Part shown: positions 43,338-59,300 of the stretch, in pieces | Numbering within the stretch: the stretch's first letter is position 1 | How the letters are laid out: each line of letters opens with the position of its first letter | From: Acidobacteriota bacterium | Lineage (GTDB): Bacteria > Acidobacteriota > Terriglobia > Terriglobales > Acidobacteriaceae | DNA: 64,000 nucleotides | Reading direction: 5' to 3' | NCBI GenBank assembly: GCA_013289685.1 | Contig: JABCZL010000002.1 | Span: forward strand, 62,001-126,000 | Notes under the pieces: model-generated | Told to the model about the DNA's origin: nothing | The model's database searches: none | The model's input: only the letters and a program-made list of their open reading frames with translations | Made by a program: the position numbers and the translations under genes

Positions 43338-44009
43338 CTAGTCGTGAAGAATAATGTTGAGAAGTGAACTGTGAATCTGCAAGTCATCCCCCCCGCGATA
43401 GTCAATGAACCCCATTTTCCTAAACCTGTTCATGAAAAAGCTCACCCGCGAGCGAGTCGTGCCGATCATCTCCGCGAGGGTTTCCTGACTGATCTTGGGG
43501 ATTGGAGTATCGTGCACGCCGTCCTTGCCGAAGTGGGCCAGCAACAGCAATATTCGAGCTAGTCTCTTTTCGCTGGAATTGAAGAGTTGGTCAACCAAAT
43601 CCTCTTCGTATCGGATGTTCCGTGCCAGCAAATATGCCACGAACATCTCGGAAAATGCTGGTTCCCGGTGTAGCACTTCCACCATGGACTTCTTGTCGAT
43701 TCTCATCACTGAGCAATCGGTCATTGCGGTTGCGGAGCAGAGGCGAAGAAGCTGCCCTGCAAGGCAACCTTCGCCGAAGAAATCGCCCTCGTTCAGAATG
43801 CCGATTGTGGCTTCCTTCCCGATCTTCGATACAACGGTGAGTTTTACTTTTCCCTTCTGTACATAAAAAACAGCATCGGACGAGTTGCCCTGAACGAAGA
43901 TCGTCTGCTTTTTGGGAAAAACTGCGATCTTCCTACCGCCGTCTATGGTAGCGAGAAATGTCTTGGGATCAAATTTGCTGGGATTCTTGGCCGCTGCCAT
44001 GGGTTTCAT
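43338..44009 (-). CDS. Crp/Fnr-family transcriptional regulator
   Basis: 223 aa with a cyclic-nucleotide-binding-type beta-roll (~20-140; GNSSDAVFYVQKGKVKLTV and GDFFGEGCLAG) and a winged helix-turn-helix (~150-215; ISQETLAEMIGTTRSRVSFFMNRF). There is no N-terminal cysteine cluster, so it is not an iron-sulfur Fnr; the effector may be a nucleotide or another ligand. An AAAGGGACGAG ribosome-binding site precedes the ATG at 44009. It stands alone, and its targets cannot be inferred. Confidence 0.9.
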   Translation of the reverse strand: MKPMAAAKNPSKFDPKTFLATIDGGRKIAVFPKKQTIFVQGNSSDAVFYVQKGKVKLTVVSKIGKEATIGILNEGDFFGEGCLAGQLLRLCSATAMTDCSVMRIDKKSMVEVLHREPAFSEMFVAYLLARNIRYEEDLVDQLFNSSEKRLARILLLLAHFGKDGVHDTPIPKISQETLAEMIGTTRSRVSFFMNRFRKMGFIDYRGGDDLQIHSSLLNIILHD

Positions 44010-44552
44010 AATCTCGTCCCTTTCAAGCCTCCGAATGAGCAGGAGGCAACGCCCTACGATGAAGGATGAATGGATGCGTAAGAAGGCGAGAACAACTTTT
44101 GCGGGGGAAGACCTACCGCACTTGACAGAACAATGATTTCACCGCAGGTGTCGAAAGTCAAACATTCCCGGTGCTGACCGTTTCAAGAGAAACGCTGGGA
44201 ACTGTGGCCGCAATCACAAAGATTGTTGGCGCACGCACGCGTTCACCAGACTCGCAGGGGTAGCCAAGCCATCCCGCCTGTGGGAAACTTGGGACATGAA
44301 AAAACCAGAGTTTACCGACGCGGGTTGGCTTGGGCCGAGGGACGAAATGGATCTCGCCAGTCATCGCTTCGGCAGATGCTCTGAGTGCCGTGAGAACATC
44401 TGTGTCGAAAAAGCGGTGACGGATACACAGAATACGCGATCGGAAACCAATGAACTGCTCGATCACACGTTTCGCGTGCACATCAAGCTGAAGCACTCTT
44501 AGGACTTCAGCCAAACCGCTTCCCGGATCGTGGATCGAAGACTGCGACTCTT
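44010..44552. other. Intergenic region
   Basis: About 540 bp between the Crp/Fnr gene and the secreted-protein gene. An open frame exists on the minus strand, but it has no recognisable domain and overlaps the end of the next gene, so I do not call it. Confidence 0.35.
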
Positions 44553-45354: not shown

Positions 45355-46023
45355 ATCGCTCCTCTTAACCCGTCAGTGATTTAGGTGTCTCCAGGGAGGG
45401 TCATCCCAAAATGCATCCCGAGAATCGTTAAATGTTGATGGGGGGCGGTCGTGAGGGTCCGAATGTCAGCCGCCTGACGCTAACCCATGACCGCCTTCAC
45501 TAGTTCCAGCGTCGAAGATAATACCTGTTGACATTCTCAACGGCCGTTCAATTTTATACACTTTCGATAATAAACCTACCCGCCGCAGTCGGCTTCCGCC
45601 TCGGTGCGAACCGACCATTTTCCCACCACAGGAGCCTGCTCAAAGAAGTAATCACGGGCCGTATTTTAAGGTGTATGCCCGCATCATTGTTGATAAATCC
45701 CGTGGCTGTTGAAAAAGTCCATTTTTCTCAAGACGGCGGAAATTTGGGGGACAGAAAATGTCTAGGAAAACCGAAACAGTCGTTTGTAGGGCTTCCAAGC
45801 GTAAAGTTTCTTCGGCCGTTTTCTGGTGAGTGAGTTTTTCAACGGCTACTCCCATTACGCTCAAAACCCCAGACTGACGGCGCGAACACACCGCGCAAGC
45901 TTGTGACATGGGTCAGCCAATGATTCCCTGAGATTATCAAGCCTTTTGTTCCTGATTCCGTTCCTGCTGTCAGAGGACAGTATCCTAGAAGAGTGCAAGT
46001 AGTCTCTCAGTCCACGGTTCTCG
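45355..46023. other. Intergenic region with a MITE-like element
   Basis: 669 bp between the small disordered protein and the HNH gene. It contains the terminal-inverted-repeat element described separately and no supported gene. Confidence 0.5.
45704..45847. mobile_element. MITE-like element with GTTGAAAAA terminal inverted repeats
   Basis: The left end GGCTGTTGAAAAAGTC (from 45704) and the right end, which reads GCCGTTGAAAAACTC on the opposite strand (ending about 45847), are inverted copies with three differences. They bound ~144 bp with no transposase. GTTGAAAAA-type ends are typical of several IS families, so this looks like a non-autonomous derivative. No clear target duplication could be fixed by eye. 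Confidence 0.5.
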
Positions 46024-46269
46024 CTAGTTTTTGCAACTATTCCCCTTGTCATGGACTAAACCGTGACATCGCTCGCAAAGCGTAATCAGGTTCTCTTCCG
46101 AATCGTCGCCTGAGTGACTACGGAATTCCTCGTGGTGGACCTGCAGTTGTTGCATTGATCCGCAGGCTTGGCACCTCCATCCATCCCGGTTAAGGACCTG
46201 CCGACACAGTTGCTGGTAGGCGTCGGCGTCCAGTCGCAGGCGAGGTTGCTTCGGCCGAATCGGTTTCAT
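46024..46269 (-). CDS. HNH endonuclease
   Basis: 81 aa. A zinc-ribbon/HNH core: CQACGS, the catalytic LQVHHEEF histidine pair (residues ~45-46), NLITLCERCH with the HNH asparagine and zinc cysteines, and a final histidine in LVHD. These small nucleases cut double-stranded DNA in phage packaging, homing or defence. The ATG at 46269 overlaps the stop of the preceding gene by 4 nt, so it is the last gene of a five-gene operon. Decayed copies of its 3' end are found at 19.4 and 21.15 kb. Confidence 0.88.
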   Translation of the reverse strand: MKPIRPKQPRLRLDADAYQQLCRQVLNRDGWRCQACGSMQQLQVHHEEFRSHSGDDSEENLITLCERCHGLVHDKGNSCKN

Positions 46270-46964
46270 GACGCCTGAGGCAGGATCTTCTCCACGAAAT
46301 CATGTTGCTGCTGGCGTGGTAGAAACTTGAAGAACCTCGTCATCGAGAACAGCAGCGTTTCTGGATCTCCGTTGTCCAGGTTGACTCCCGCCAGGAAGTC
46401 CGCGCAGATCATCTCCAGACAGTAGCCGCGGGATCGATCGCTGCCCAGCATCAGTGCTGCCGTTTCGATCGCTTTCTCAATGACCGGCATCTGGCTCTGA
46501 TACAGCTTGAAGTAGACAATCTCCCACGGTTCCGTTTCCCGACCCGTCAGTTCCTTCTCAACCTCCTTCTTGAACTCTTCTTTCGGCATCTGACGGGCTT
46601 TGTGCAACCAGGTTGCACAATCGAACTGCTGCCTGTCCCGCCTCGCCAGCTTGGCTAGTTCCAGCCCCTTTGCCCAGCCCACTTCCTTCAGTTGCTTTCT
46701 CGCCTGCGGCGGCAGATACTCGTGGATCGACATCAGGTAGTACGCCTTCCTCCGCGATTCCGGGAAACGCCTCTCCAGAAATTCGTCGAAACACTTCAAA
46801 CTCTCCAGCCTCCAGTATTGTCCCGCCCGCACCTCGCATAGATAGCGTCCCAGTTCGACGAACTTGGTATCGCGCTCCGTCTCCTTCAGCTGCTCCCAGG
46901 CCAGAATCTCGTCGATCTTGCCCAGTACGAATACGGCGCGGCGACGATTGAACTTCGGGGGCAT
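46266..46964 (-). CDS. Unknown helical protein in the recombination cassette
   Basis: 232 aa from the ATG at 46964; the frame extends to 47003 but would overlap the nuclease gene. It is rich in charged helices with no membrane segment (KFNRRRAVFVLGKIDEILAWEQL, FDEFLERRFPESRRKAYYLMSI). I do not recognise the family. It lies 10 bp after the RecB-like nuclease and overlaps the HNH gene by 4 nt, so its expression is tied to both. A structural, DNA-binding or regulatory role in the cassette is possible but unproven. Confidence 0.75.
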   Translation of the reverse strand: MPPKFNRRRAVFVLGKIDEILAWEQLKETERDTKFVELGRYLCEVRAGQYWRLESLKCFDEFLERRFPESRRKAYYLMSIHEYLPPQARKQLKEVGWAKGLELAKLARRDRQQFDCATWLHKARQMPKEEFKKEVEKELTGRETEPWEIVYFKLYQSQMPVIEKAIETAALMLGSDRSRGYCLEMICADFLAGVNLDNGDPETLLFSMTRFFKFLPRQQQHDFVEKILPQAS

Positions 46965-46974
46965 GGGCGGATAC

Positions 46975-47778
46975 TCAGTAATTAAGCTCGTCAAGCCAAT
47001 CAAGACTGTCGGCTCCTGGACGCCGCACCACCGCGGCGTCGATCATCTCCTGCTTGCCAAGACAGAGGCCCACGTAGGGGCAGGTGCTGCATGGGTTTTG
47101 TGGGAAACGGATGCCGCTGTGTGGAGGAAAGTCCGCTGACTCGATCCGACGCATCGTGTCATCCACGAGACGGCCAAACTCCTGGCGTTGTTCATCGGTA
47201 ATAGTAGTGCGTAGGTACTGCACCTCGACCAGGCTCTTGCGGACGAATACGACCTGGGCGACCTCCGCAATGCCCGTGATCCAGGAGTAGCAAACCAGCT
47301 GCGGATCCAGAGACAGCAGTCCGTCCGGTTCTTCCGGGTATCGGCCGGAAGAGGTCTTCCACTCCAGCAGGCAGCGTGTGCCGTCCAGTCTTCCGATGGC
47401 ATCGATATAGGCAACGAAGTCGTTCTTCTCGCCGACGGGCCGAGTGAACTTGATCTGCAGATTCCGTCGAGGCTGGAGGACCCGGACCCGATCGTCCTGG
47501 CAGAACCGGGTTAACAGCATGATGCCTTGCCGGAGCATGCGGTCCCAGGAGTCTCGGTTGGAGTAGTGCAGGTCTTGGCTTTGGCATGCAGACCACTCAG
47601 CGAACAGAACTGCTCCGGGATCTTCCTGGCGAAACAGCGCACCCAGGGCTCGTTCGAAGGCACGGCCAAAGAGCATCGCCGCCCGGGTGTCCTTCTCCTT
47701 CCAGCCATCGAGATAACGGTGCCGATACCGGCGCGGGCAGGTGAGGTAGTGGCTGATTTGGGTGTAGCTGTAGGTCAT
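46975..47778 (-). CDS. PD-(D/E)XK nuclease, RecB/Cas4-like with Fe-S cysteines
   Basis: 267 aa from the ATG at 47778, which shares one base with the stop of the previous gene (TGATG); an upstream extension to 47826 is unlikely. The catalytic core follows the RecB family: GRAFERAL, then DAIGRLDGTRCLLEWKTSSG with the Asp and the Glu-x-Lys pair. One N-terminal cysteine (LTCPRRYRHRY) and three C-terminal ones (CSTCPYVGLC) match the iron-sulfur clasp of AddB and Cas4. It probably degrades DNA ends to single strands, making substrate for the annealing-type protein encoded two genes upstream. No other cas gene or repeat array is present, so a CRISPR role is unlikely. Confidence 0.88.
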   Translation of the reverse strand: MTYSYTQISHYLTCPRRYRHRYLDGWKEKDTRAAMLFGRAFERALGALFRQEDPGAVLFAEWSACQSQDLHYSNRDSWDRMLRQGIMLLTRFCQDDRVRVLQPRRNLQIKFTRPVGEKNDFVAYIDAIGRLDGTRCLLEWKTSSGRYPEEPDGLLSLDPQLVCYSWITGIAEVAQVVFVRKSLVEVQYLRTTITDEQRQEFGRLVDDTMRRIESADFPPHSGIRFPQNPCSTCPYVGLCLGKQEMIDAAVVRRPGADSLDWLDELNY

Positions 47779-48206
47779 CAGGCCACCTGCGGATTGTCCA
47801 GGTTTGCTGGGGAAAGCTCTTCCCAACGGCCGGCAGGAGCAAAGCCGTCGAGCCGGAGCAGGGAAGCGCCGTTAAAGTCGATGTGACTGATCTTGACCAC
47901 GCCCTTGAGACCTACGAGCTGCCGCTCATCGACTTCGTCGCGCCCCAGGAGTTCAGTGTCATAGCCGAAGTCGCGGAGGAACCAGTTCAGCTTCCACAGC
48001 GCTTTCGGAGTGCAATAGAGCCGGCTCGAAAGGATGTGGCCGGAGAAACGGCTGGGCTCAAGAACGCCCAGGGCCAGGGTGTAATAGGGCTTCTGTGCCT
48101 GACGCTGAAACCTGACTCGCTGTACCCGAACGAGGAAGACCCCGTTGGGGATCTGGTCCGAGGCACCGCGATCGGAGGCGTGCAGGCCGGAGATCTGGCG
48201 TTTCAA
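47778..48206 (-). CDS. Probable OB-fold single-strand-DNA-binding-like protein
   Basis: 142 aa starting at a TTG (48206) that overlaps the upstream stop by 4 nt. The pattern IPNGVFLVRVQRVRFQ, YYTLALGVLEP, GHILSSRLYCTPKALWKLNWFLRDFGYD, then VGLKGVVKISHI is reminiscent of phage DUF669/SSB-like OB-fold proteins found next to recombinases and Cas4-like nucleases. The similarity is weak and by eye only. Its place between the candidate annealing protein and the nuclease supports a DNA-binding role. Confidence 0.6.
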   Translation of the reverse strand: MKRQISGLHASDRGASDQIPNGVFLVRVQRVRFQRQAQKPYYTLALGVLEPSRFSGHILSSRLYCTPKALWKLNWFLRDFGYDTELLGRDEVDERQLVGLKGVVKISHIDFNGASLLRLDGFAPAGRWEELSPANLDNPQVA

Positions 48207-48964
48207 GCGGCACCTTCTTTCTGGCCGAGATAGCTGTTGAGCTGGCAGAGCAGGGCATTGCGGTCTTTTTCAGCCCAGTCGGCCAGGTGCGCGACGAAGG
48301 TCTCGACCTGATCACGGGTAGCGTCACGAAGCGCCTTGACACTGCAGAAGTCGGTCGCATAGGACTTGACCAGGTTGGGATCGAGTTGATGCTGGCGAAT
48401 GAGCTGGCAGAGGCGATCGCGCACCTTCGGGCTGCCGTGACCATTTCCGTTGGCAGGTTGGGGCGGGAGTTTCCTCGACTCCCGTGAAGACTGCGGCGGT
48501 TCGGCGACGGCCCCGATCTCCTCCACTGAGCAGATGCCAATGCCGTAGGCCTTGCGCAGGGCGCGGTTCACGGCGCGTGTCTCCGCTACGCGCATCTCGG
48601 CGCCGTGGACCACGAACGAAACGTTCGAGGGATCGGCGTCGCCAAAGCCTGCAAAGCCGGTGCAGGTCTTGGAGCTATAGACGGTGGCCTTGCACACATA
48701 TCGGCCAGCCGTCGGATCACACAGGGCAGCGACAGCTTCGACATTTATTCCAGAGCATCTCTTCCGTCGAGCCACACGCAGCAATCCGGAATGGGTGACG
48801 TACCAGTGATTGTTGATCAAGAGTAGGTCCCCGGAAGCGATCTCCACGCGCAAATCGTCCGAGAGGGACTTTAGCGCTCTTGCAGAGGACTTTTCCAAGT
48901 GCGAGCCCCACATTTTCTTCGCTGTCCGCAAATTTCGCTTATACAAGTCAAGTATTCTCTTCAC
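48203..48964 (-). CDS. Candidate single-strand-annealing recombinase (Rad52/ERF-like)
   Basis: 253 aa, first gene of the cassette, starting at a GTG (48964) preceded by GGGGTG. Residues ~25-170 contain LRVEIASGDLLLINNHWYVTHSG, then CKATVYSSK and FVVHGAEMRVAETRAVNRALRKAYGIGI, a helix like the ETRA-x-x-RAL motif of phage Rad52/ERF/Sak-type annealing proteins. A proline/glycine-rich linker (~175-190) leads to a C-terminal helical domain. The assignment is by motif and context (OB-fold protein, exonuclease and HNH in the same operon), so it is moderate. It would anneal single strands during recombination. Confidence 0.6.
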   Translation of the reverse strand: MKRILDLYKRNLRTAKKMWGSHLEKSSARALKSLSDDLRVEIASGDLLLINNHWYVTHSGLLRVARRKRCSGINVEAVAALCDPTAGRYVCKATVYSSKTCTGFAGFGDADPSNVSFVVHGAEMRVAETRAVNRALRKAYGIGICSVEEIGAVAEPPQSSRESRKLPPQPANGNGHGSPKVRDRLCQLIRQHQLDPNLVKSYATDFCSVKALRDATRDQVETFVAHLADWAEKDRNALLCQLNSYLGQKEGAA

Positions 48965-48982
48965 AATGCACCCCGATCAATT

Positions 48983-49020
48983 GTAACGCTATTGTACAGC
49001 ATTTAGCGTTACTAATGCAA
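48983..49020 (-). promoter_or_regulatory. Promoter with palindromic operator of the recombination cassette
   Basis: GTAACGCTA (48983-48991) and TAGCGTTAC (49004-49012) form a perfect 9-bp inverted repeat with a 12-bp spacer. On the minus strand it overlaps a promoter: TTGCAT (49015-49020), 18 bp, then TACAAT (48991-48996), placed 27 bp before the GTG of the first cassette gene. The divergent ribbon-helix-helix protein is the obvious candidate repressor. Binding is inferred. Confidence 0.65.
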
Positions 49021-49074
49021 ATTGAATTCGCCTCTGGGGTGTTTGGTCATACAATCCTGTTCGGTGACCTCGGA

Positions 49075-49272
49075 ATGCTTAAGACAGAAACCCTTAACCT
49101 GCGTGTATCGGCCGATTTCAAGAAACGCCTCACCGAAGAGGCCGCTAAAGAGAGACGCTCAGTGACGAACTACTTGGAAACGACGCTGCTCGCACATTGG
49201 GAAGGAGCGGATGCATTAAACGGCAAGGAGAAGGGAAAGAGAAAGGGTCTTGATGCCACCCAGGGCCGGTGA
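49075..49272 (+). CDS. Ribbon-helix-helix (Arc/CopG-type) DNA-binding protein
   Basis: 65 aa from the ATG at 49075 (the frame is open upstream, but into the operator). The beta-strand TETLNLRVSADFKKRL and helix SVTNYLETTLLAHW match the Arc/CopG fold, in which a dimer reads palindromic DNA through the paired strands. The tail is lysine/glycine-rich. It is divergent from the five-gene cassette and separated from it by a perfect palindrome, so it probably represses the cassette. No partner toxin is adjacent. Confidence 0.75.
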   Translation: MLKTETLNLRVSADFKKRLTEEAAKERRSVTNYLETTLLAHWEGADALNGKEKGKRKGLDATQGR

Positions 49273-49547
49273 CCCCTTGGGCGCGGTCCGTTGGTGGCTT
49301 ACGGCACCCCCGTGCAAATGGTTGATGTGGTGCTCCCATTTTGGTTAGAATCAAAATGGCGGCCGACTCAACGCTGGCTGTTCTGTTGTTGGTTACCTCA
49401 AGAATGAGTATGCGACGTCGAAGAAGGTGTATGGAACGCGGGACTCGTTTCGATGGATCGGACTACGATTGTACGTAGCGAGAGCGCGCATTCACTCTGC
49501 TCAGCGCATCTGCGGGTGATTTACATCCTGCAGCGACCGAGGGAACC

Positions 49548-50828
49548 GTGGCGGACCGTCCGCTTCAATCTTATCCCAGAATCTTGGCGACCGCTGGCGA
49601 GACGTTCGCTGACGGGTCGGTTTTGGAACTCGTCATGTCGGCGACTCCCGGTCGACTTGCTCTCCTCTTCCTTCGCGCGGGCCAGAAACAAGTCGCCGCG
49701 CAGATCGAGCATTCCGGCTGTCTCTACAGGCCGCCCAACTTAGATGAAGCAATGGTTCGCGCGATGCGCCTCCCGCATAACGCGAAGCCCTATGGCTCGA
49801 TTGGGAAACTTCTTCACCGAATCAGCGAGATTTTCGAACTCCACGCAGGTCTGCCCCAACCGGAATCCGCATTGTTGACTGCATGGACCGCGAGTTCATG
49901 GTTCGCGGACTGCATCACGAGTCCGCCTACTCTGTTGGTTTTCGGACTGGACATGGGCTGCGCCGTCAGACTCTTTCGCTTGTTGCATTGCGTTTGTCGG
50001 CACCCAGTGTTGCTCGGCGATCTTAGTCGCTCGGCTTTTTTGACGCTTGCGCCATTGGGCGCCACTCTGCTTATAAACCAGCCTGATCTGTCGCCTAGCG
50101 TTCGCGCTCTGTGGAGCACTTCGAACTATCGCGGGGTCCACGTCTTCGGAAACGGAAGACTCAAATCCGTCGCTAGCTCCAAAGCTATTTTTGCGGGCAT
50201 GCTGCACGAGCGCCAAGACGAAGGCTTGCGCCTCGCACTTCCGCCAACAAATCACGATATGCCTCCGTTGGACGACAGTCATCTAGCGGCGATTGCGCAA
50301 GAAATGCAGCCGAAGTTGCTCGATTTCCGCTTGCGCAACCTAGACAAAGTGCGCACGTACTCCACCCGCGATCACGGTTCGAATTACCCGGAAACTGAAG
50401 TCGCGCGAAACCTCGCGGCCAGTGTCCTTGGAGAACCTGAGATCATGGAATCGATCGCTCCGCTCCTGCGAGCCTTAGAACAGGACAACATCGCGCAGCG
50501 CGGCTGCAATGTTCATGTGGCTATTCTCGAAGTCGCATGGGCCCCATCCCACACAGATCGGGAAGTCAGCGTCTCCCGACTGACAGATCTCACGAATGCG
50601 CTCCTGCGCTCACGCGGCGAAATTTTCGAGTACAGCGCTGCCGAGTTGGGTTGGAAGCTGAGGAATTTCGGCTTCCGACACCATCGGAATGGGCGGGGAA
50701 TGGTGCTGCAGTTCTTGCAAGAGAACCGGGTTCTTCTTCATCAGTTGGCTTCACGACTGGGTTTGAATTTGCCTTCGGTTTCCGCATGCGGGCTTTGTTG
50801 CCCAACCAAAACTGTTGATTCCAGGTAG
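49548..50828 (+). CDS. Unknown protein resembling a primase/helicase-type ATPase with degenerate nucleotide-binding motifs
   Basis: 426 aa from a GTG at 49548 with GAGGGA upstream. Residues ~108-200 (LLTAWTASSWFADCITSPPTLLVFG, then LFRLLHCVCRHPVLLGD, TLLINQPDLS, GVHVFGNG) follow the order of phage/plasmid DUF3631-like ATPases. However, the P-loop position reads GLDMGCAVRL with no GKS/T, and the Walker B site reads LLINQPDL instead of LLIDEAD. It may be a non-catalytic remnant domain with a structural role. The C-terminus has another helical domain. It lies downstream of the ribbon-helix-helix gene on the same strand. Family not confirmed. Confidence 0.6.
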   Translation: MADRPLQSYPRILATAGETFADGSVLELVMSATPGRLALLFLRAGQKQVAAQIEHSGCLYRPPNLDEAMVRAMRLPHNAKPYGSIGKLLHRISEIFELHAGLPQPESALLTAWTASSWFADCITSPPTLLVFGLDMGCAVRLFRLLHCVCRHPVLLGDLSRSAFLTLAPLGATLLINQPDLSPSVRALWSTSNYRGVHVFGNGRLKSVASSKAIFAGMLHERQDEGLRLALPPTNHDMPPLDDSHLAAIAQEMQPKLLDFRLRNLDKVRTYSTRDHGSNYPETEVARNLAASVLGEPEIMESIAPLLRALEQDNIAQRGCNVHVAILEVAWAPSHTDREVSVSRLTDLTNALLRSRGEIFEYSAAELGWKLRNFGFRHHRNGRGMVLQFLQENRVLLHQLASRLGLNLPSVSACGLCCPTKTVDSR

Positions 50829-50880
50829 CTTGTGTGGGTCGTGTATGATTTGTAGCTTTCTCTATACTTTGGAGGTCGAA

Positions 50881-51621
50881 ATGCCCGTCAAAAGAGCTCA
50901 ACTGAACCGACAGCAAAAAGCAAAGTACATGGCGCTGGTACAGGACCTACAAGCGGTGCAACTAATCTGTGCAATCCCCGGCGAGAGGGAAGACGAAGAA
51001 AAAGTACATGAGCTCGACATCTTCGCTGCTCCGCCCGAGGGCAACATCCTTTGCGAGCTTTCCTCCGGAGTGACCGCATACGCGATCTGGGTGCGACTGA
51101 TTGCTCTGGGCAGTAATTTGATGCTGGAGAATTGTGAGATCGTGTCTGACTGGGACTCGGAATCGATTGTGTTGTGGCAGAGCCAGAGAGGACTGTATCG
51201 CGTCGAGAGTGCCATCAACCTCACTGACGCGGAAGTTCTCAACCACCGGATTGAAAGCGGACTACGCTTTCATCACCGAGGGGACGTCGAGGAGGGTTGG
51301 CTGGTCGCGAGCGGTCTCAAGTCAATTCCGGAGAGGTACGGAGACCAGACGGTCACGAACCTTAGAGTCACTTTCACCGACCAGTTCGGGCGCGATCACT
51401 CCACGCATACGCAAGCTTTGCTTCAGAGACCTGCGCCCTTGAAGAACTCCCTCTCCCGAGTGCGCAACTCGCTGTTTGAGACTGAGGGCTCCGAGATGAA
51501 GGTTTGGCCTGAAGTGCCTGGGATCACGCCCAGAAGGCAACCTGAATGCAGTGGAGGGGATGAGCATCAATGGCGAGGACGCCAGAAGAACGATGGATCT
51601 GTGGCCGGTCATATCGGGTGA
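50881..51621 (+). CDS. Protein of unknown function
   Basis: 246 aa from the ATG at 50881, chosen for the GGAGG box at 50871-50875; the open frame extends to 50815. The N-terminus is basic (MPVKRAQLNRQQKAKYMALVQDLQ), the middle is beta-rich (ILCELSSGVTAYAIWVRLIALGSNLMLENCEIVSDW), and the C-terminal ~50 residues are polar and low in order. No membrane segment or catalytic motif is seen. It follows the ATPase-like gene by 52 bp and probably shares its transcript. I do not recognise a family. Confidence 0.6.
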   Translation: MPVKRAQLNRQQKAKYMALVQDLQAVQLICAIPGEREDEEKVHELDIFAAPPEGNILCELSSGVTAYAIWVRLIALGSNLMLENCEIVSDWDSESIVLWQSQRGLYRVESAINLTDAEVLNHRIESGLRFHHRGDVEEGWLVASGLKSIPERYGDQTVTNLRVTFTDQFGRDHSTHTQALLQRPAPLKNSLSRVRNSLFETEGSEMKVWPEVPGITPRRQPECSGGDEHQWRGRQKNDGSVAGHIG

Positions 51622-52202
51622 TTTTACCAAACGAACGCAGTAAGTATCTTTGTTTGCAACGGCACGCTCCCGGACGAGGTCTGCTAGATATGGTTGGCTG
51701 AGACCGGACTGCGACATGCATTTGGCCGCAGCCCCAAGTCTTCCACAATCTGGTCGATCATGTAATTTGTACCAAGGTTTTTCCCTAGGGCGGGAACTTT
51801 CGTCTAAGGTATTCACCTGATCACGCTGCTGGAGGCTCTTCCATTCCAAGGAGTAGGCGAGGTTCACCGGTTCCGCCCGAACGGGGCCTGGAGCTGCTGG
51901 ATCAGCATCAATCCGACGTTCGTCGGCCGCCACTGCCGACGGGTGTTCCCGATTTGGGCGAGTCTTTACGCGCTGCAGAGGGGAAAAATCCGTCGAACGC
52001 AGCTGCCTAACTGTTCTCCAGAGGGACCTTTCAGTTTCCAGGGAAGCGATCCCTCTGCCCGCAACCGCTTGTGGAAAATGCTGTTCGGGCGTCACAGTGG
52101 ATAACCGTCTCAAAATGGCAACGTGGGTGCTATGGGATTTGGTAAGGTTGAGCCGCGCACCAACTGTGGGCGTGGGGCGATGCAAGAAGGAGGGGGGATC
52201 GG
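51622..52202. other. Intergenic region
   Basis: 580 bp without a supported gene. The minus strand is open over most of it but shows no domain. It ends with the strong AAGGAGGGGGG ribosome-binding site of the next gene. Confidence 0.4.
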
Positions 52203-52493
52203 ATGAAGGATCAGACTGTTCGGCTGGGTCCACGCGAACAGCAAATTGTCGAATTGCTTTTGCAGGGTTGTGACAACGCCGAGATTGCGTCTCAACTCAA
52301 CATGGCGCGACGCACTGTGAAAGCGCATTTCAACCGGTTATTTCTGAGGTTCGGAATTAACGGCGGTATCAAGCGAGTGAAACTCGCGACCCTGTTGTAC
52401 CGGAGGCAAGCATGTCTGCAACTGAACGCTATGGCACCCGTGTCCCCAGTGAACGTGAACAGCGGGTTATCCAACTCGTTGCCGAAGGCCTGA
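52203..52493 (+). CDS. Stand-alone LuxR-type HTH protein (pair 1, first member, extended tail)
   Basis: 96 aa. Residues 8-65 are a GerE/LuxR helix-turn-helix: LGPREQQIVELLLQGCDNAEIASQLNMARRTVKAHFNRLF. No receiver or ligand domain precedes it. The paralogue at 62866 stops in an ATGA overlap with its partner; here the equivalent site reads GCATGT, so the stop is lost and translation continues 27 residues into the next gene in another frame (RQACLQLNAM...). Overlap with the second member is 82 bp. A strong AAGGAGG box precedes the ATG. Confidence 0.8.
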   Translation: MKDQTVRLGPREQQIVELLLQGCDNAEIASQLNMARRTVKAHFNRLFLRFGINGGIKRVKLATLLYRRQACLQLNAMAPVSPVNVNSGLSNSLPKA

Positions 52494-52648
52494 AGAACCG
52501 CGAAGTCGCGGAGGCCATCGGGACGACCGAGCACGTCGTGAAGAATTATCTGCGTGTGATTTACGACAAACTAGGACTGTGGAACCGCGTCGAACTCGCG
52601 CTGTGGTATGAGTCGCGTCGGAATCCGTCGGTGCTGGTAACGCAGTAG
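52412..52648 (+). CDS. Stand-alone LuxR-type HTH protein (pair 1, second member)
   Basis: 78 aa consisting of a LuxR-type helix-turn-helix: VPSEREQRVIQLVAEGLKNREVAEAIGTTEHVVKNYLRVIYDKLGLWNRVELALW. It starts inside the preceding HTH gene, so its translation probably depends on that gene. Its closest relative in the window is the second member of pair 2 (63087-63350), with the same KN-x-LR-x-x-x-DKLG-x-W core. The pair may form a heterodimer. Targets unknown. Confidence 0.8.
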   Translation: MSATERYGTRVPSEREQRVIQLVAEGLKNREVAEAIGTTEHVVKNYLRVIYDKLGLWNRVELALWYESRRNPSVLVTQ

Positions 52649-52716
52649 ATTTTCGACCAGGTCCGCTAGGACCATTGTGCGAAACGCGGCAGTGCGTCCG
52701 CTGAGGGCACGCTGAA

Positions 52717-53991
52717 TCAGTTGCAGCCAAAAGCCTGAAGATGTCGCAGCCGCTCGCCGGCGTCTTTTGTTCCGCGGAGGGCCGCTGAATCGAGCAGGAT
52801 GCGCGCCTGGTCGCAATTCTTCGGAACTCCATCGCCTTTCAGATACAAGTCCGCTAGAAGAACGCTCGCACTGCCATTGTGCTTGCCCATGGCTTTCCAG
52901 AGCCACTTGGCCGCCTCGGCGCTGTTGCGCGGCTCGCCATTGGCTCCGTGAAGGTAACGCTGCGCCATAGCGAGTTCTTCGGCGCCGTTTCCCGCAAGAC
53001 TTTCCGCCGTCGGATTCTTCTCGGTGATTAGAGTCGAGGGTGGGGCAGCCTTAGCGGTCGTGTCCCTGCCGCTTTTCGGGGTAGCGTCCTCACTCGCCGG
53101 ATCGGCCGCCGCAGCACGGGAAGGGACACCGGCTGGCTGGTTCGATGCGGGAGGTTGTTCCGGAGCATCCGCTTTCGATGTGCTCGGCGCAGCCGGAGCC
53201 GGTGTCGCGGGCAGCGTCGTCGCAGCAGCGGTCGAATCCTGCAATGCAGCGTGCGAATTCCCGGAGGTGGTTTGCGAACTGCGCCAGGCCATGTAACCCA
53301 GCGCGAAAATCAACGTCGCCAGCGCGATCCCCACATAGACGCGGTAGGAGCGTGAAGTCGGCGGATCGCTGAAGATATCGTCGCGGTAGCCAGTGTCGCG
53401 GGCGCTCCGAAACAACGACAATTCATTGGCAAGCAATGCCGGTTCGTACACAGCTCCTGCAGACGGAGCAGGTCGATCCTGAAGCCGGTCTTCGATAGGC
53501 CGATCCTCGATAGGCCAATCTTCGATACGCTGATCTTTCGGGCCGGCGACCTGAGGATCCTCGACGTGAAGATCCGCAACATGCAAATCTGCCACATGAA
53601 TGCCGGTGGCCGTGGGTTGTTCCGCCAGAGCAATGCCACAGATACCGCAAAACCGGTGAGATGCAGGATTCTCGCGGCCGCACCTGTGACAGCGAACGCC
53701 GGCCGGTTGTGCTTCCGCAAACGATGGAGCGGCTGCGATCGCACGCTGTGGGGCTGAGCGTTCCAAGTCCGAGGATGCATGCGCGGCGTTGGTGACATCG
53801 TGCTGCGGATTCTCCGTCCGCAACTCCCGCAGCAACTCCAGCACAGCCTGCTCGCGTTTTTCCGGCGGGCTGGTGAAATAAACCTCGGCCCAGCGACCCA
53901 TGTTTTGGGCCAGGAGGGGATTCAGAAGAGGGTTCAACTCAGGCGACGGCAAGGTGCCGGCACCGTCGGAATGGTCGGTTTGATGCGGCAA
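52717..53991 (-). CDS. Zinc-ribbon, single-span membrane protein with Sel1-type repeats
   Basis: 424 aa starting at a TTG with GGAGA upstream. Residues ~98-120 form a zinc ribbon (CHRCGRENPASHRFCGICG). Residues ~130-180 are a pentapeptide-repeat linker (HVADLHVADLHVEDP, then IEDWPIEDRPIEDR) encoded by 15-bp tandem units. One membrane span follows (VYVGIALATLIFALGYMAW, ~220-238). After an Ala/Pro/Ser-rich stretch come Sel1-like helical repeats (~345-424; AMAQRYLHGANGEPRNSAEAAKWLWKA). The architecture suggests a membrane-anchored scaffold. It follows the GAF protein gene on the same strand by 135 bp, and both have a zinc ribbon and one span. Confidence 0.75.
   Translation of the reverse strand: MPHQTDHSDGAGTLPSPELNPLLNPLLAQNMGRWAEVYFTSPPEKREQAVLELLRELRTENPQHDVTNAAHASSDLERSAPQRAIAAAPSFAEAQPAGVRCHRCGRENPASHRFCGICGIALAEQPTATGIHVADLHVADLHVEDPQVAGPKDQRIEDWPIEDRPIEDRLQDRPAPSAGAVYEPALLANELSLFRSARDTGYRDDIFSDPPTSRSYRVYVGIALATLIFALGYMAWRSSQTTSGNSHAALQDSTAAATTLPATPAPAAPSTSKADAPEQPPASNQPAGVPSRAAAADPASEDATPKSGRDTTAKAAPPSTLITEKNPTAESLAGNGAEELAMAQRYLHGANGEPRNSAEAAKWLWKAMGKHNGSASVLLADLYLKGDGVPKNCDQARILLDSAALRGTKDAGERLRHLQAFGCN
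53475..53595. repeat. 15-bp tandem units in the zinc-ribbon protein gene
   Basis: Units such as CTTCGATAGGCCGAT, CCTCGATAGGCCAAT and CTTCGATACGCTGAT repeat with 15-bp spacing, followed by a second related block. On the minus strand they encode imperfect pentapeptides (PIEDR, HVADL) in the linker between the zinc ribbon and the membrane span. Confidence 0.7.
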
Positions 53992-54126
53992 ATAGCGTTC
54001 TCCGGTTTAACCAAAAACTTGAAGAGAATTTGTGGGCGAACCCTATCTTTTAGATTGCACTCTGGAGGCCGGGAGTTGTCAACTGAAACCACGAGGTAAC
54101 CGCAAGTGGCGGCCTGGCAAGGACTT

Positions 54127-56061
54127 TCAGTCGCAGGCCTTTCGGGAGGCGGGCTCGAACTGGTCCAGTTGCGCGTCCCGCTGTGAAGTAAATTTCCCCT
54201 TCGGCGTCTTCCCGTACAGGTCGGCTCCGGGGCAATAGTAAAGCGCGGTGTGGAGATCGACCCAGACCTGTGTCTCAGGATTTCCCTTGGATTCCGGCGT
54301 CGGTGGCGCCTCCGCCAGACCCATGCTGATGAGCATCCGGTCGAACAGCGAAAGATCAGCCTCAGGCGAGGGTTTGCGATGAGCCGCCGCTGCGGCGGCC
54401 GGACTCCCCGTGGGTCTGAAGGAATGCTTGGGCAAGGTTACCCAGCGAATGACACCGGCAATCAGCAGGACGGCAATCGCCAGGTAGATATCGCCTCGGT
54501 GAGAATTCCAGAACCGGGCCACTCCCCCAGGACCGTGTGTAGAGGCCAGTTGCTCCAGGAAATCGCGGGCGCTGGCCGCAGAACTCCACGCGGCGGTAGT
54601 TTCCGTTTTTGCAAGCGCCGTGGATTGTGGGGCCTCGACCTCGTCTTCTTCGCCGGTCTCCAGAGGGCCGGTTTCCAAAGGAACTTCAATATCCGACAGT
54701 ACGGGCTCCTCGAACTCTGCATGGATCGTCGATGGATGGATCGTCGATTGAGCGCTGGTTGATGGATAACTCGTCGATTGACGGGTCGGTAATTGGTGGC
54801 TCAGCGCATCGCTGAATTCGGTAGACTCGGCCTCACCAACCGGTAGCTTGACCGCTGCAAAAAGCGCGCGCGTTTGACCTGCGAGCGGATCGGTCAGAGA
54901 TTTCTCCGAGGGGATTCGATCCGAGGGGATACGATCAAGGTTCACTTGCGATACCAGCGGAGCGGGTGCGCGATCGACAGAATCCAGCGCGGAACTCTTC
55001 CTCATCGCTTCCTGCATATGCCACATAGACGCCACTTTGCTCTGCATGCTGGGCGGCTCGTAGTCGCTGCTGCGCGGCGTTCCGCAATTTCCGCAGAACT
55101 GTTCCTCTCCTACGAGTTGGTGCGCGCATTTCCGGCAAAAGAAATCAGACGCGGTCGCTGCTGCGGCCGGAGCGATGGGCCGAATCTTCGTTTCTTCAGC
55201 TGGAGGCTTGTCGACCAGAGTCGCGAGATTCGGCGTCAGCTTTTCCAGTGCTTCCAGCATGGCGGCACGTTCGTTCGCGCGCGATTTCATCCGGGTGACT
55301 TCTTCGTCGCGCACCAGCGCTTCGGTTACTAATCCGGCCATGAGTTGGCAGGTGTGAACATCCTGATCGGTAAAGGCCTGCGTGGTGGCGTAGTAAAGCT
55401 CCAGGCCGCCTGCGACTTTGCCATTGTGAAAAACTGGAACCGCGATCAGCGACTCGATGCCCCGACGGCGGCACTGTTCCGCATCCACCAGCAATTCGAG
55501 ATTGACATCAGCACAGCGGAAGACGTCCCCGGTCTCAAGGCACGAGGCGCAGAGCGCTTTTTCCACGGGAACATCGGTGCCCATAGCCGGCGTCAGTGTT
55601 CCGGCACTTGCCCGGTAGCGCAGGTTCTCGCCATCTTCTTTGTCATCGAGGATGCCAATCGCAGCACCGCTCGCGCGAGCGATCTGGATCAGTTGCTCGG
55701 CGACCAACGACAGCGCGCTCCCCAATTCCAGATGACGAAGTTGAATCAGGTGCTGGGTTCCGACGATCTTGGCCAGAGTGGAGGTGTAATCGGCGTTGGG
55801 CGCGGCCGGCTCTGGTTCCTGGATTTGCGGCGCGCCCTGGGCAAGGGTGGAACGCAGTTCCGCCTCGAGCTGTTCGGGCTTCAGTTCGGGCAGCAGTTCG
55901 GACTTCAGCTCGAAGGCGAGTTCCATCTCCTGCCGTTTGCGGTTGTGTTCCTGCAGCACATAGGCCGCTTCCAGCAGCTTTGCGAGGGTCTGCTCGTCGA
56001 CAACTGGTTTGTCTTTTTCCTCAGCCACGATTTCTTTTTCCACCAGTGGAAACCGTCCCAT
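54127..56061 (-). CDS. GAF-domain protein with zinc ribbon and a membrane span
   Basis: 644 aa. Residues ~10-80 are acidic and helical. A GAF domain lies at ~110-260 (SGAAIGILDDKEDGENLRYRASAG, then IESLIAVPVFHNGKVAGGLELYYA), and a zinc ribbon at ~315-335 (CRKCAHQLVGEEQFCGNCG). A long disordered segment contains tandem pentapeptides (STIHP-like, and DRIPS twice). One span follows near 540 (LAIAVLLIAGVIRWVTL), then a short C-terminal domain. GAF domains sense small ligands or partner proteins, but no output domain is present. It begins at the ATG at 56061 and is probably co-transcribed with the zinc-ribbon/Sel1 gene downstream. Confidence 0.8.
   Translation of the reverse strand: MGRFPLVEKEIVAEEKDKPVVDEQTLAKLLEAAYVLQEHNRKRQEMELAFELKSELLPELKPEQLEAELRSTLAQGAPQIQEPEPAAPNADYTSTLAKIVGTQHLIQLRHLELGSALSLVAEQLIQIARASGAAIGILDDKEDGENLRYRASAGTLTPAMGTDVPVEKALCASCLETGDVFRCADVNLELLVDAEQCRRRGIESLIAVPVFHNGKVAGGLELYYATTQAFTDQDVHTCQLMAGLVTEALVRDEEVTRMKSRANERAAMLEALEKLTPNLATLVDKPPAEETKIRPIAPAAAATASDFFCRKCAHQLVGEEQFCGNCGTPRSSDYEPPSMQSKVASMWHMQEAMRKSSALDSVDRAPAPLVSQVNLDRIPSDRIPSEKSLTDPLAGQTRALFAAVKLPVGEAESTEFSDALSHQLPTRQSTSYPSTSAQSTIHPSTIHAEFEEPVLSDIEVPLETGPLETGEEDEVEAPQSTALAKTETTAAWSSAASARDFLEQLASTHGPGGVARFWNSHRGDIYLAIAVLLIAGVIRWVTLPKHSFRPTGSPAAAAAAHRKPSPEADLSLFDRMLISMGLAEAPPTPESKGNPETQVWVDLHTALYYCPGADLYGKTPKGKFTSQRDAQLDQFEPASRKACD
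54718..54792. repeat. 15-bp tandem units in the GAF protein gene (block 1)
   Basis: About five imperfect 15-bp units around GATGGATCGTCGATT encode repeated STIHP/STSAQ-like pentapeptides in the disordered region. Confidence 0.7.
54906..54935. repeat. 15-bp tandem duplication in the GAF protein gene (block 2)
   Basis: CCGAGGGGATTCGAT and CCGAGGGGATACGAT are adjacent, encoding DRIPSDRIPS. Confidence 0.8.
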
Positions 56062-56348
56062 GACGCAGCCCGGTATCCGGCAGGAATGCGCCTATTCTAG
56101 TGCAATAGCCGCGCCGGCACAGAGTGGCCAAAGGTGCAGCTAGCGGGGCGGGGGATGAGATTCAGGGGGGAGCGAACTTGGGCTTCCTCTGGCAGGCGGA
56201 GCCCCTTCGGCCCTGCCGATAGTCTACCGCTAGACGCGGCGGGTTGCGAGTAGTTCTTCAAGCGGGACGGGTGAGGGCAGAGTCTGGTAATCACACTCCA
56301 GTAACCACAGCAGGTTGCAACGATCTGCAACCTTCACCGCAGATCTCC

Positions 56349-59300
56349 TCATTCGGATGCGGGAGAGATCTCGGTCGGGGATTCGCTCTTACCGCTCAGA
56401 TAAAAGTGCACCGCCGGAGTGATGATGAGCGAGAGCACCATGGAAATGAGAACGCCGCCAATGACTGCGATGGCGAGCGGCTGCAACATTTGCGATCCGG
56501 CGCCGATGGCGAAGGCCAGCGGCAGCATGCCCGCGACTGTAGCCAGGGCCGTCATGACGATGGGACGCAACCGCCGGCGTCCGGCTTGCAGCATCGCATT
56601 TTCGGCGGGCAGGCCCAGAGCGCGCATCTTCTGATCGGCGTCGAGCAGCAGGATGCCGTTCTTGGCCACGATGCCGATCACCATGATCATCCCCATGAAC
56701 GATGAGATGTTGAACGTCGTGCGCGTGATCAGCAGGGCAATGAAGACGCCCGATGTGGAGAGCAAAGCCGACGACAGAATGGCGACCGGTGCCGCGAACG
56801 TTCCAAACTCAAACAGCAACACAATGAAAAGCAGCAGGACGGCAAGGATCAGCACGATTACCAGATCGTGGAACGAGCGTTGTTGCTCCGCGTAAGTTCC
56901 GCCATACACCACGCGAATGCTGGACGGAATGTGCATCCCGGCCACGACCTTTTGCACATCCGCCATGCCGCTGCCCAGGCTTCGGCCCTCCAGGCGCGCG
57001 GTGACCGCGACGTCGCGTTGCAGGTTTTCGCGGCGAACCTCAGTCTGGCCCGGATTCTCCACCACCGTCGACAGCGCGCCCAACGTCGCCGTGTGTCCCG
57101 TGCTGCTGACCAGCAGCGTGTCGCGCATGGCCTCGAGCGAGGCGCGGTTGGCAGCGGGAAAACGCACCCGCAGTGTGTAGGCACGATCATTCGTGACGAC
57201 CGGCGTAGGCGCCGGTTCGCCCTCCAGAATCGCCGAGGCGTCGAGCGCGACTTCTTCCGCGGTAAACCCGGCTCGGGCCGCCACGCTGGGATCAACCTGG
57301 AAAGTGACGGCGGGCCCGCTGATGGTGTTGTCGATCCCGTTCAGCAGGTCCACCACTCCGTCGATCTTTCCAATGGCTTCCGCCACTTTGGGTGCCCACT
57401 CTTCCAACTGCTTGGGATCCTGCGAAAACAGTTTGATCTCGATCGGCTGCGGCGCGGAGGTGAGATCGCCGATCATGTCCTGCAGAACTTGGATGAAATC
57501 GACATCCAGGGCCGGTTCCTCTTTCTTGATGTCGGCGCGCACGTCGGCCATGATCTCATCAATGTCGCGGTCGCGCTTAGCCTTCAGCTTGACCAGGATG
57601 TCGCCGCTATTGGCTTCCGTCACGGCGGCGAGCCCGAGTTGCAAACCTGTGCGTCGCGAGGTGCTCTCCACTTCAGGAAGTTCACGGAGCATCTGTTCGA
57701 CGTGATTCACGACGCGGTTGGTTTCCGCCAGCGAGCTGCCTGCCGGCATGATGTAGTCGATGACGAATCCGCCCTCGTCCATCTCCGGCAGTAAATCCGA
57801 GCCGGAGAAGGTGTAGCAGAGGTAGGAAACGAGAACTAGGCCGGCGCTGAAGAGAACCAGTAGCCGGGGCCGTTCGAGAGCTCGGCGCAGCCAGCGTTCG
57901 TGGAAGTTCACCACGCGCAGGAAGAAGCCGCTCAGGTGTTTCTCCTCGGCCGCAAGCAACTTCATCGCGTCGTCATCTTCGGCTGGGGCCTCGGCACCAT
58001 TCAGCGCCGGAGAATCGGCGGCGTCAGAACCTTCAGATTCCGGTTGCGCCCCTTTTTTCTCGTGCCGTCCCTTGATGAAATATTGGCTCAGAGTCGGCGT
58101 CCACGTTACCGCCAACACCAACGAAGTCAGCAGCGATGCCGTCATGGTCACTGCCAGCGCGCGGAAAAAGACCCCCGTAACACCGGTGATCACAATCAGC
58201 GGGATGAAGACGACCACCGGAGTGATAGTCGATCCGATCAGCGGAACCGTGATTTCTTTCAGCGCGCTGCGAATGGCTTGCCGCCGACCTTGCCCCGCGT
58301 CGCGGTGCAGGACGATGTTCTCGACCACGACGATGGCGTCATCGATGACTAGTCCCACGGCCGCTGCCAGACCACCGAGGGTCATCAGGTTGAAGCTCTC
58401 TCCCATCACCTTGAGGGCGATGAACGTTACTAGGACCGTCACCGGAATCACCAGACCCGCAACCAGCGAGGTTCCCCAATCGCGCAGAAACACCACGAGA
58501 ATGATCGACGCGAGAATCAGGCCCAGCAGGATGGCATCGCGGACGCTCTTGATCGAGTCGCCCACGATGATCGACTGATCGTAAAAAGTGTCGATGTGAA
58601 CGCCGGGGGGAAGCGTTTTGCGAAGGCGTTCGATTTCGTCGTGCACTTCCTGCGCGACCTGCACCGTGTTTCCGTCGGGCTGGCGATTAATGTTGAGCAG
58701 TACCGCTGGCTTCCCGTTCGCTGTGACCACGGTGTAGACGGGCTTCACGCCCGGCGCCACGCTGGCGACATCGCCGATCCTTACGGGAATTCCTGCCGGC
58801 GTGTTCTTGATCACCGCGTTCGCGATTTCTTCGGGCGTGCGCACCTGTCCGTCGACCAGGCCGAGATAGAGTTGGTGATTGCGCTCCAGCAGTCCCGGGG
58901 AGTCGATCAGATTGGTGCGCCGCACCGCGTCCAGAATGTCGGACACGGTGATGCTCGATGCCAGCAGCTTGGCGGGATCGGGCGTGATGTGGAATTCAGG
59001 TTCTTGCCCGCCCTGTACGATCACCGTGGACACACCTTCCAGACGGTTCAGGCGCGGCTTCATTTCGTAGGTGGCCATCTCCCACAGCTTGGTTTGCGGC
59101 ATGCTGTCGGAAGTCAGGCTGTAGCCAATGACGGGAAAGGCGGCGAAGGTCAGGCGGTGAGCTTCAATCTTCGCGGTGGCGGGCAGTTCCGGCTGCACCC
59201 GTGAAATGGCGGCGTTGACATATTGCAGCGTCTGAAACATGTCGACGTCCCAGCGGAAATAGAGATCCACTTCCGCCGATCCCCGGCTGGTGATGGAGCG

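Follow-up and report, generated by a model that had tools for sequence, protein, structure and literature searches.

A candidate stand-alone Red-type recombination element, probably mobile, in Acidobacteriaceae

Five overlapping minus-strand genes behind a palindrome and a divergent ribbon-helix-helix (RHH) gene occupy positions 46024-49272 of the 64,000-nt window (the whole stretch of DNA that was analysed), and this cassette raises the question of what kind of unit it forms. The first-pass annotation considered a stand-alone recombination, mobility or defence system. On the evidence below, we consider it, with a probability of roughly 55%, to be a stand-alone, repressor-controlled Red-type recombination element of ~3.3 kb that is probably mobile. 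Its multi-copy state, the exchange of its regulators, the homogenisation of its core and the gene-4/HNH tails described here all lay beyond the view of that first annotation.

Composition and conservation of the cassette

The coordinates confirmed the tightly packed five-gene layout reported earlier, in which adjacent genes overlap by 4, 1 and 4 nt or, in one case, leave a 10-bp gap. Gene 1 (48203-48964, minus strand) encodes a 253-aa protein whose structure model has a RAD52/Red-beta-type fold with a Red-beta-like C-terminal domain, moderately supporting a single-strand annealing protein, as first proposed. Scanning phages and plasmids with gene 1 gave distant partial matches only, and a public protein search returned at least 8000 matches, with every scored candidate matched. 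Gene 3 (46975-47778, minus strand) encodes a 267-aa RecB/AddB/Cas4-type PD-(D/E)XK nuclease that matches PF12705 (E 9e-19) and a phage exonuclease PHROG (E 6e-12). Its residues D126, E139-x-K141, Q160 and Y164 and the cysteines C14, C230, C233 and C239 were at least 95% conserved in 57 copies, upholding the nuclease assignment and the four cysteines of the RecB/Cas4-like Fe-S enzyme suggested before. By its sequence, gene 3 is the predicted exonuclease partner of the modelled annealase in one operon, and the pair bears out the proposed likeness to a Red-type module.

Gene 2 (47778-48206, minus strand; 142 aa) remained without an assigned family: profile and PDB searches gave no Pfam family and no PDB match, its matches to NCBIfam and PHROG reached nothing better than E 0.03 and 0.11, and no match was found in phages. 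The OB fold once attributed to it gained no support from these searches; its position suggests an SSB-like or loader protein. Its dN/dS was 0.05-0.08 in the three computable pairs of the window's own genome.

Gene 4 (46266-46964, minus strand; 232 aa, mostly helical) matches phrog_17202 (E 7e-12); its AF2 model is unreliable (pLDDT 50), and its phage homologues are weak (best E 2e-5), one of them close to RecA and RuvC genes. Gene 5 (46024-46269, minus strand; 81 aa) is an HNH nuclease by its match to PF01844 (E 3e-10), as annotated. Across 44 copies, the domain's CxxC pairs, histidines and asparagine show conservation of at least 95%, and the domain matches the HNH parts of IscB and of a maturase reverse transcriptase. 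Both genes had been regarded as unusual additions and instead proved regular members, gene 4 being present in 56/61 and gene 5 in 47/53 copies with room for them. On a 47-kb IMG/VR contig (L226:5725-7164), an HNH gene comes after the gene for a 305-aa gene-4-like protein that contains the SRGYCLEMICADF motif, which suggests that gene 4 and the HNH gene belong together, perhaps as a long-standing phage pair. Genus genomes usually also carry one copy of a different HNH protein, mostly ~200-230 aa (for example G000:C10:101028-101201), that matches the gene-5 profile weakly (E ~1e-7).

The host genome holds four gene-1 copies, each with genes 2-5 behind it. A neighbourhood check upheld the five-gene order more widely: genes 2-3-4-5 followed gene 1 in 45 of 51 testable copies, the four own copies included, and the remaining six were broken, duplicated or partial. 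Testable copies were those with at least 2.45 kb downstream among 82 gene-1 C-terminal ends, taken from 79 GTDB loci (found via gene 1, so that its presence there reflects selection), the four own and two viral loci. One copy (L042:10001-13122) has the end of gene 1 and the start of gene 2 duplicated internally. Another, from the host genome (L009, G000:C6), shows apparent frameshifts in genes 2 and 3, which could be decay or assembly error, and an HNH remnant ~4 kb downstream.

Annealase modules are known mainly within phages and large conjugative elements; here such a module stands alone and in many copies, with gene 1 detected in 56/398 genomes and 17/79 sampled genera of one acidobacterial family. 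Across the phylum, it was found in 2/396 genomes, one of these being a weak match with internal stops. The 44 genomes chosen as positive had 1-7 gene-1 matches each, fragments included, and none was found in several MAGs from the same genus, G084 and G481 among them. Module sequence also occurred on four IMG/VR contigs of <10 kb, of which one carries just gene 1 and another genes 1-3. Two short IMG/VR contigs (L089 and L225) are perhaps bacterial, their viral label being due to the complete module that each contains. A literature search of PMC, outside which most subscription papers lie, found no description of such an element.

Exchanged heads and homogenised cores

The presumed operator at 48983-49012 is a perfect 9-12-9 palindrome, GTAACGCTA-12-TAGCGTTAC, and the RHH gene lies beyond it at 49075-49272 on the plus strand. 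This confirmed the self-regulated layout with a divergent regulator, whose class recurs among copies as one of several that are exchanged; the HicB/RHH profile matches of its product fall below curated cut-offs. The promoter was said to overlap the palindrome: the palindrome is present, but a consensus scan found no sigma-70 match at it, and a TACAAT -10-like box inside it was seen by eye only. Perfect inverted repeats with arms of at least 8 nt occurred in 31/78 promoters of the cassette family, compared with 2.9 expected from dinucleotide shuffles, and together with the gene order shared by 45/51 copies this argues that the layout is more than chance. The repeats vary between copies and, judged by eye, often agree inside one regulator class.

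Among the 80 copies having the gene-1 start plus >250 bp upstream, a small recurring gene adjoins gene 1 in 78 (71 divergent, 7 co-directional). Most of these head genes resemble DNA-binding regulators, classed by eye as several RHH kinds, an XRE-like HTH and a short LGRLGAK protein, and the 80 regulators formed 9 clusters at a normalised score of 0.4. Comparing the window with an orthologous site in another species (G443), we found that the host flank at 49398-51603, common to G443 and G460, aligned at 72% and the module at 46019-48805 at 84%. The 592 bp between them (48806-49397), comprising the gene-1 start, palindrome and RHH gene, did not align with the corresponding 627 bp of G443, which carry another regulator class. 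These alignments indicate that copies swap their heads (regulator, operator and gene-1 start), and at this one site the swap can be seen in place. At L071 and L131, a complete gene 1 and its regulator come directly after the remains of an older head, whose regulator and gene-1 start are truncated at one and the same conserved motif. Two tests of whether equal regulators are avoided within a genome were not significant (all regulators distinct in 9/18 multi-copy genomes vs 9.6 expected; within-genome regulator pairs, P 0.2), and immunity between copies is thus without statistical support.

The remainder of the module behaved differently from its regulator: pairs within one genome were more alike in genes 1-4 than in nearly all of 20,000 label shuffles (reached by at most ~1 in 20,000), whereas the regulators were not elevated (mean similarity 0.103 vs 0.125 expected). 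Within-genome means were 0.888 for gene 2 (0.653 expected) and 0.696 for gene 1 (0.621 expected), on the basis of 63 pairs for gene 1 and the regulators and 52, 41 and 35 for genes 2, 3 and 4. Along 36 complete modules from 20 genomes, third-position divergence within genomes followed a U-shaped profile of 0.66 at the gene-1 start, 0.26-0.36 in genes 2-4 and 0.52 at the gene-5 end (26 pairs), against 0.70, 0.41-0.57 and 0.58 between genomes (604 pairs). Among the own-genome copies, dS was ~1.0-1.4 in gene 1, 0.3-0.5 in genes 2-3, 0.15-1.0 in gene 4 and from 0.6 to saturated in gene 5, and dN/dS in computable pairs was 0.05-0.25, indicating purifying selection; the L009 copy was unusable for dN/dS of genes 2 and 3. 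Judged by these comparisons, the core of genes 2-4 is homogenised among the copies of one genome. The U-shaped profile is what gene conversion among resident copies gives; it points to no particular recombinase, and host RecA alone could be the cause.

Ends, tails and neighbouring genes

Homology between differently placed copies mostly ends, on one side, near the regulator 3' end and, on the other, 17-155 bp beyond the final conserved HNH codon; in one case it runs ~320-350 bp past that codon, and a few copy pairs share more sequence outside the element. No target-site duplication or conserved terminal sequence was found, and by eye no end motif was shared by 33 5' and 16 3' borders, where short repeats may escape. 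Around three of the own-genome copies (L008, L007 and L006), comparison with 45 genus genomes matched the flanks and gave no clean empty site. G481 shares window positions 52032-58442, has no blastn match to the 2.6 kb adjoining the module and is unmatched on the other side, and the G460 contig ends at the module site. Many insertions may be old, since one module site is occupied in two species (the window and G443) and another shows only tails in a relative. Among the matches listed, no PF00589 tyrosine integrase lay within ~67 kb of 21 modules in five genomes, several on contigs short enough for a distant integrase to be missed.

The loci read contained 39 tails, that is, 5'-truncated gene-4 pieces with gene 5, both beside modules and alone. 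They lay on the strand of the same-locus module in 15/16 cases, and wherever a locus had two or three tails (nine loci), all of them shared one strand. L023 and L195 each hold a gene-4 fragment on the opposite strand. The 5' borders of the tails were spread across codons 1-289 of the gene 4-5 reference, and site-specific truncation was rejected: codon 109 was common to three tails, two of them apparently one unit in two genomes. Tails were defined by part of gene 5, which fixes their 3' end partly by definition and excludes gene-4-only fragments. Among the matches listed, a hand count of gene-4 fragments that left out contig-edge and frameshift-split rows gave 32 C-terminal-only vs 8 N-terminal-only pieces. 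A readable full HNH is kept by 15 tails, with nearest-neighbour dN/dS of 0.12-0.37; this range spans the module HNH median of 0.20 and so does not decide whether the tails work. In the host genome, a tail accompanies one of the four copies, the window copy having none. Scattered LINE-like truncated copies were rejected for this genome, in which searches with genes 4 and 5 yielded nothing beyond the four modules, a single HNH remnant next to one of them and a weak, unrelated HNH protein.

Two loci carry arrays. At L021, cargo units alternate with two gene-4 pieces and four copies of gene 5, of which one belongs to the module. The units are AbiEii, an Rv0078B-type antitoxin with DUF6036, DUF433 with DUF5615, and one unit without a Pfam match. 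At L071, tails alternate with Phd-PIN and Phd-Zeta pairs. Toxin-antitoxin families accounted for 17 of 85 ORFs upstream of tails (a hand count from the best 25 of 37 families, overlaps between families not shown), compared with one PIN in 99 control ORFs (Fisher P 1.5e-5). Without L021 and L071, which had suggested the idea, ~9 of 72 ORFs remained (Fisher P 0.002; the test used 74). The 85 ORFs comprise 80 of 101 upstream ORFs plus five known array ORFs of L021 and L071; the 21 left out were module or tail ORFs together with some that overlapped or lay on the opposite strand, many in these two loci. Control windows (39 of 133 possible) lay at least 5 kb from modules and are perhaps more core-like; for one control half, the best 25 of 29 families were tallied. 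Such an excess might be a general property of genomic islands. For intact modules lacking tails, the best 25 of 67 families downstream gave mixed content (PIN 2, PIN_3 1, otherwise polysaccharide and other genes), so that arrays are an accompaniment and not the rule. That set covered 91 of 109 ORFs, 18 from L021, L071, L077, L083, L201 and L209 being omitted; some of these are toxin-antitoxin or Fic genes, and the set therefore understates such genes. A 1.1-kb cargo segment located downstream of an intact module in the host genome (L008:12580-13671) recurs in G443 (L148:10562-11653), where a truncated gene 4-5 tail follows it.

Explanations and known systems

We infer both movement of the module and array-building. 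In a stand-alone Red-type element, the head regulator would silence the operon until entry into a cell without that repressor, or until repression fails. At the 3' end, DNA might then be cut or marked by the gene 4 and HNH proteins; the gene 3 nuclease would resect, and the gene 1 annealase would join single strands. Annealing with a sister copy would convert the core, and an incoming copy could anneal one-sidedly at gene 4/HNH while its other side is joined illegitimately, without homology, inserting foreign DNA. The product of such one-sided capture, [new DNA][truncated gene 4-HNH] following the module, would match the arrangement at L021. Tails could also arise by simple decay or nested insertion.

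A different account, which we regard as possible yet unlikely, takes the genes for old phage recombination genes retained by the host for repair or recombination, spread via duplication, homologous recombination and neighbouring mobile elements, with tails as decayed copies. Purifying selection on the cassette genes and the orthologous site occupied in two species agree with it, as does a 16-kb stretch read in G439, beside a match to the right flank of the own copy L008, that holds tails without a module; distant homologues of genes 1 and 4, moreover, sit among phage replication or recombination genes. Against this stand the patchy presence within one genus, the defined ends, and near-identical cores that carry different regulators and have far more diverged ends inside one genome, a pattern that simple duplication does not give. 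A satellite mobilised by a helper phage or conjugative element would account for phage-type genes with a repressor and operator and for module sequence on the four short IMG/VR contigs, but whole units are short and without a packaging or transfer gene, and the 21 modules had no listed integrase near them; we hold it improbable. Slightly more improbable still is a defence or anti-plasmid system with its own repressor, to which the two nucleases, the regulator and the toxin-antitoxin genes near tails might point. In PADLOC, Cas4 models match part of gene 3, and HNH-containing models (DpdF, ZorE and others) match only the HNH domain of gene 5; genes 1, 2 and 4 and the RHH gene had no match, and the cassette as a whole matched no catalogued system. 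An annealase is moreover a recombination protein, and regulator exchange and core conversion have no ready meaning for defence. Of the three roles first considered, recombination was supported, mobility has indirect evidence, and defence was not supported.

Beyond the stand-alone Red-type element, we tentatively entertain a stronger version, which we would not expect to hold: an integrase-free mobile element whose annealase, through one-sided recombination at the gene-4/HNH tail, would drive both its movement and the building of same-strand toxin-antitoxin arrays. Exchangeable repressor/operator heads would set the control of each copy, and the element would be a functional integron analogue of different chemistry. 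Integrons can hold toxin-antitoxin cassettes, and in L021 and L071 small addictive cassettes likewise lie in one orientation behind a recombination module. Unlike in an integron, the contigs of the L021 array (G439) and the L071 array (G578:C24) had no tyrosine recombinase among the matches listed, nor did the surroundings of modules in three other genomes, and many modules have no array; the repeated part is a variable gene-4/HNH tail without fixed 5' borders, where an integron has a fixed attC site. With this cassette one can test whether, in the absence of integrases and transposases, an annealase and an HNH protein can move DNA and assemble arrays of genes; new recombineering tools for poorly tractable soil bacteria may also come from it.

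Lambda Red and RecET resemble the cassette in having annealase and exonuclease in one operon, and the gene-1 model resembles both N- and C-terminal domains of Red-beta. The cassette differs in its RecB/AddB/Cas4-like nuclease with four cysteines, in the regular presence of gene 4 and the HNH gene, and in occurring in several chromosomal copies with exchanged regulators. SXT-type conjugative elements reportedly carry a Red-type annealase and exonuclease pair outside phage, there inside an element of ca. 100 kb (PMC3118119), whereas the cassette is a 3.3-kb unit without transfer genes. In contrast to HNH homing endonucleases and IscB, gene 5 encodes an HNH domain (~73-81 aa) that stands free and follows gene 4. 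Elsewhere in the window, a gene labelled by eye as a CRP/FNR-like regulator lies at 43338-44184, and most of the 45 genus genomes contain many diverged matches to its DNA.
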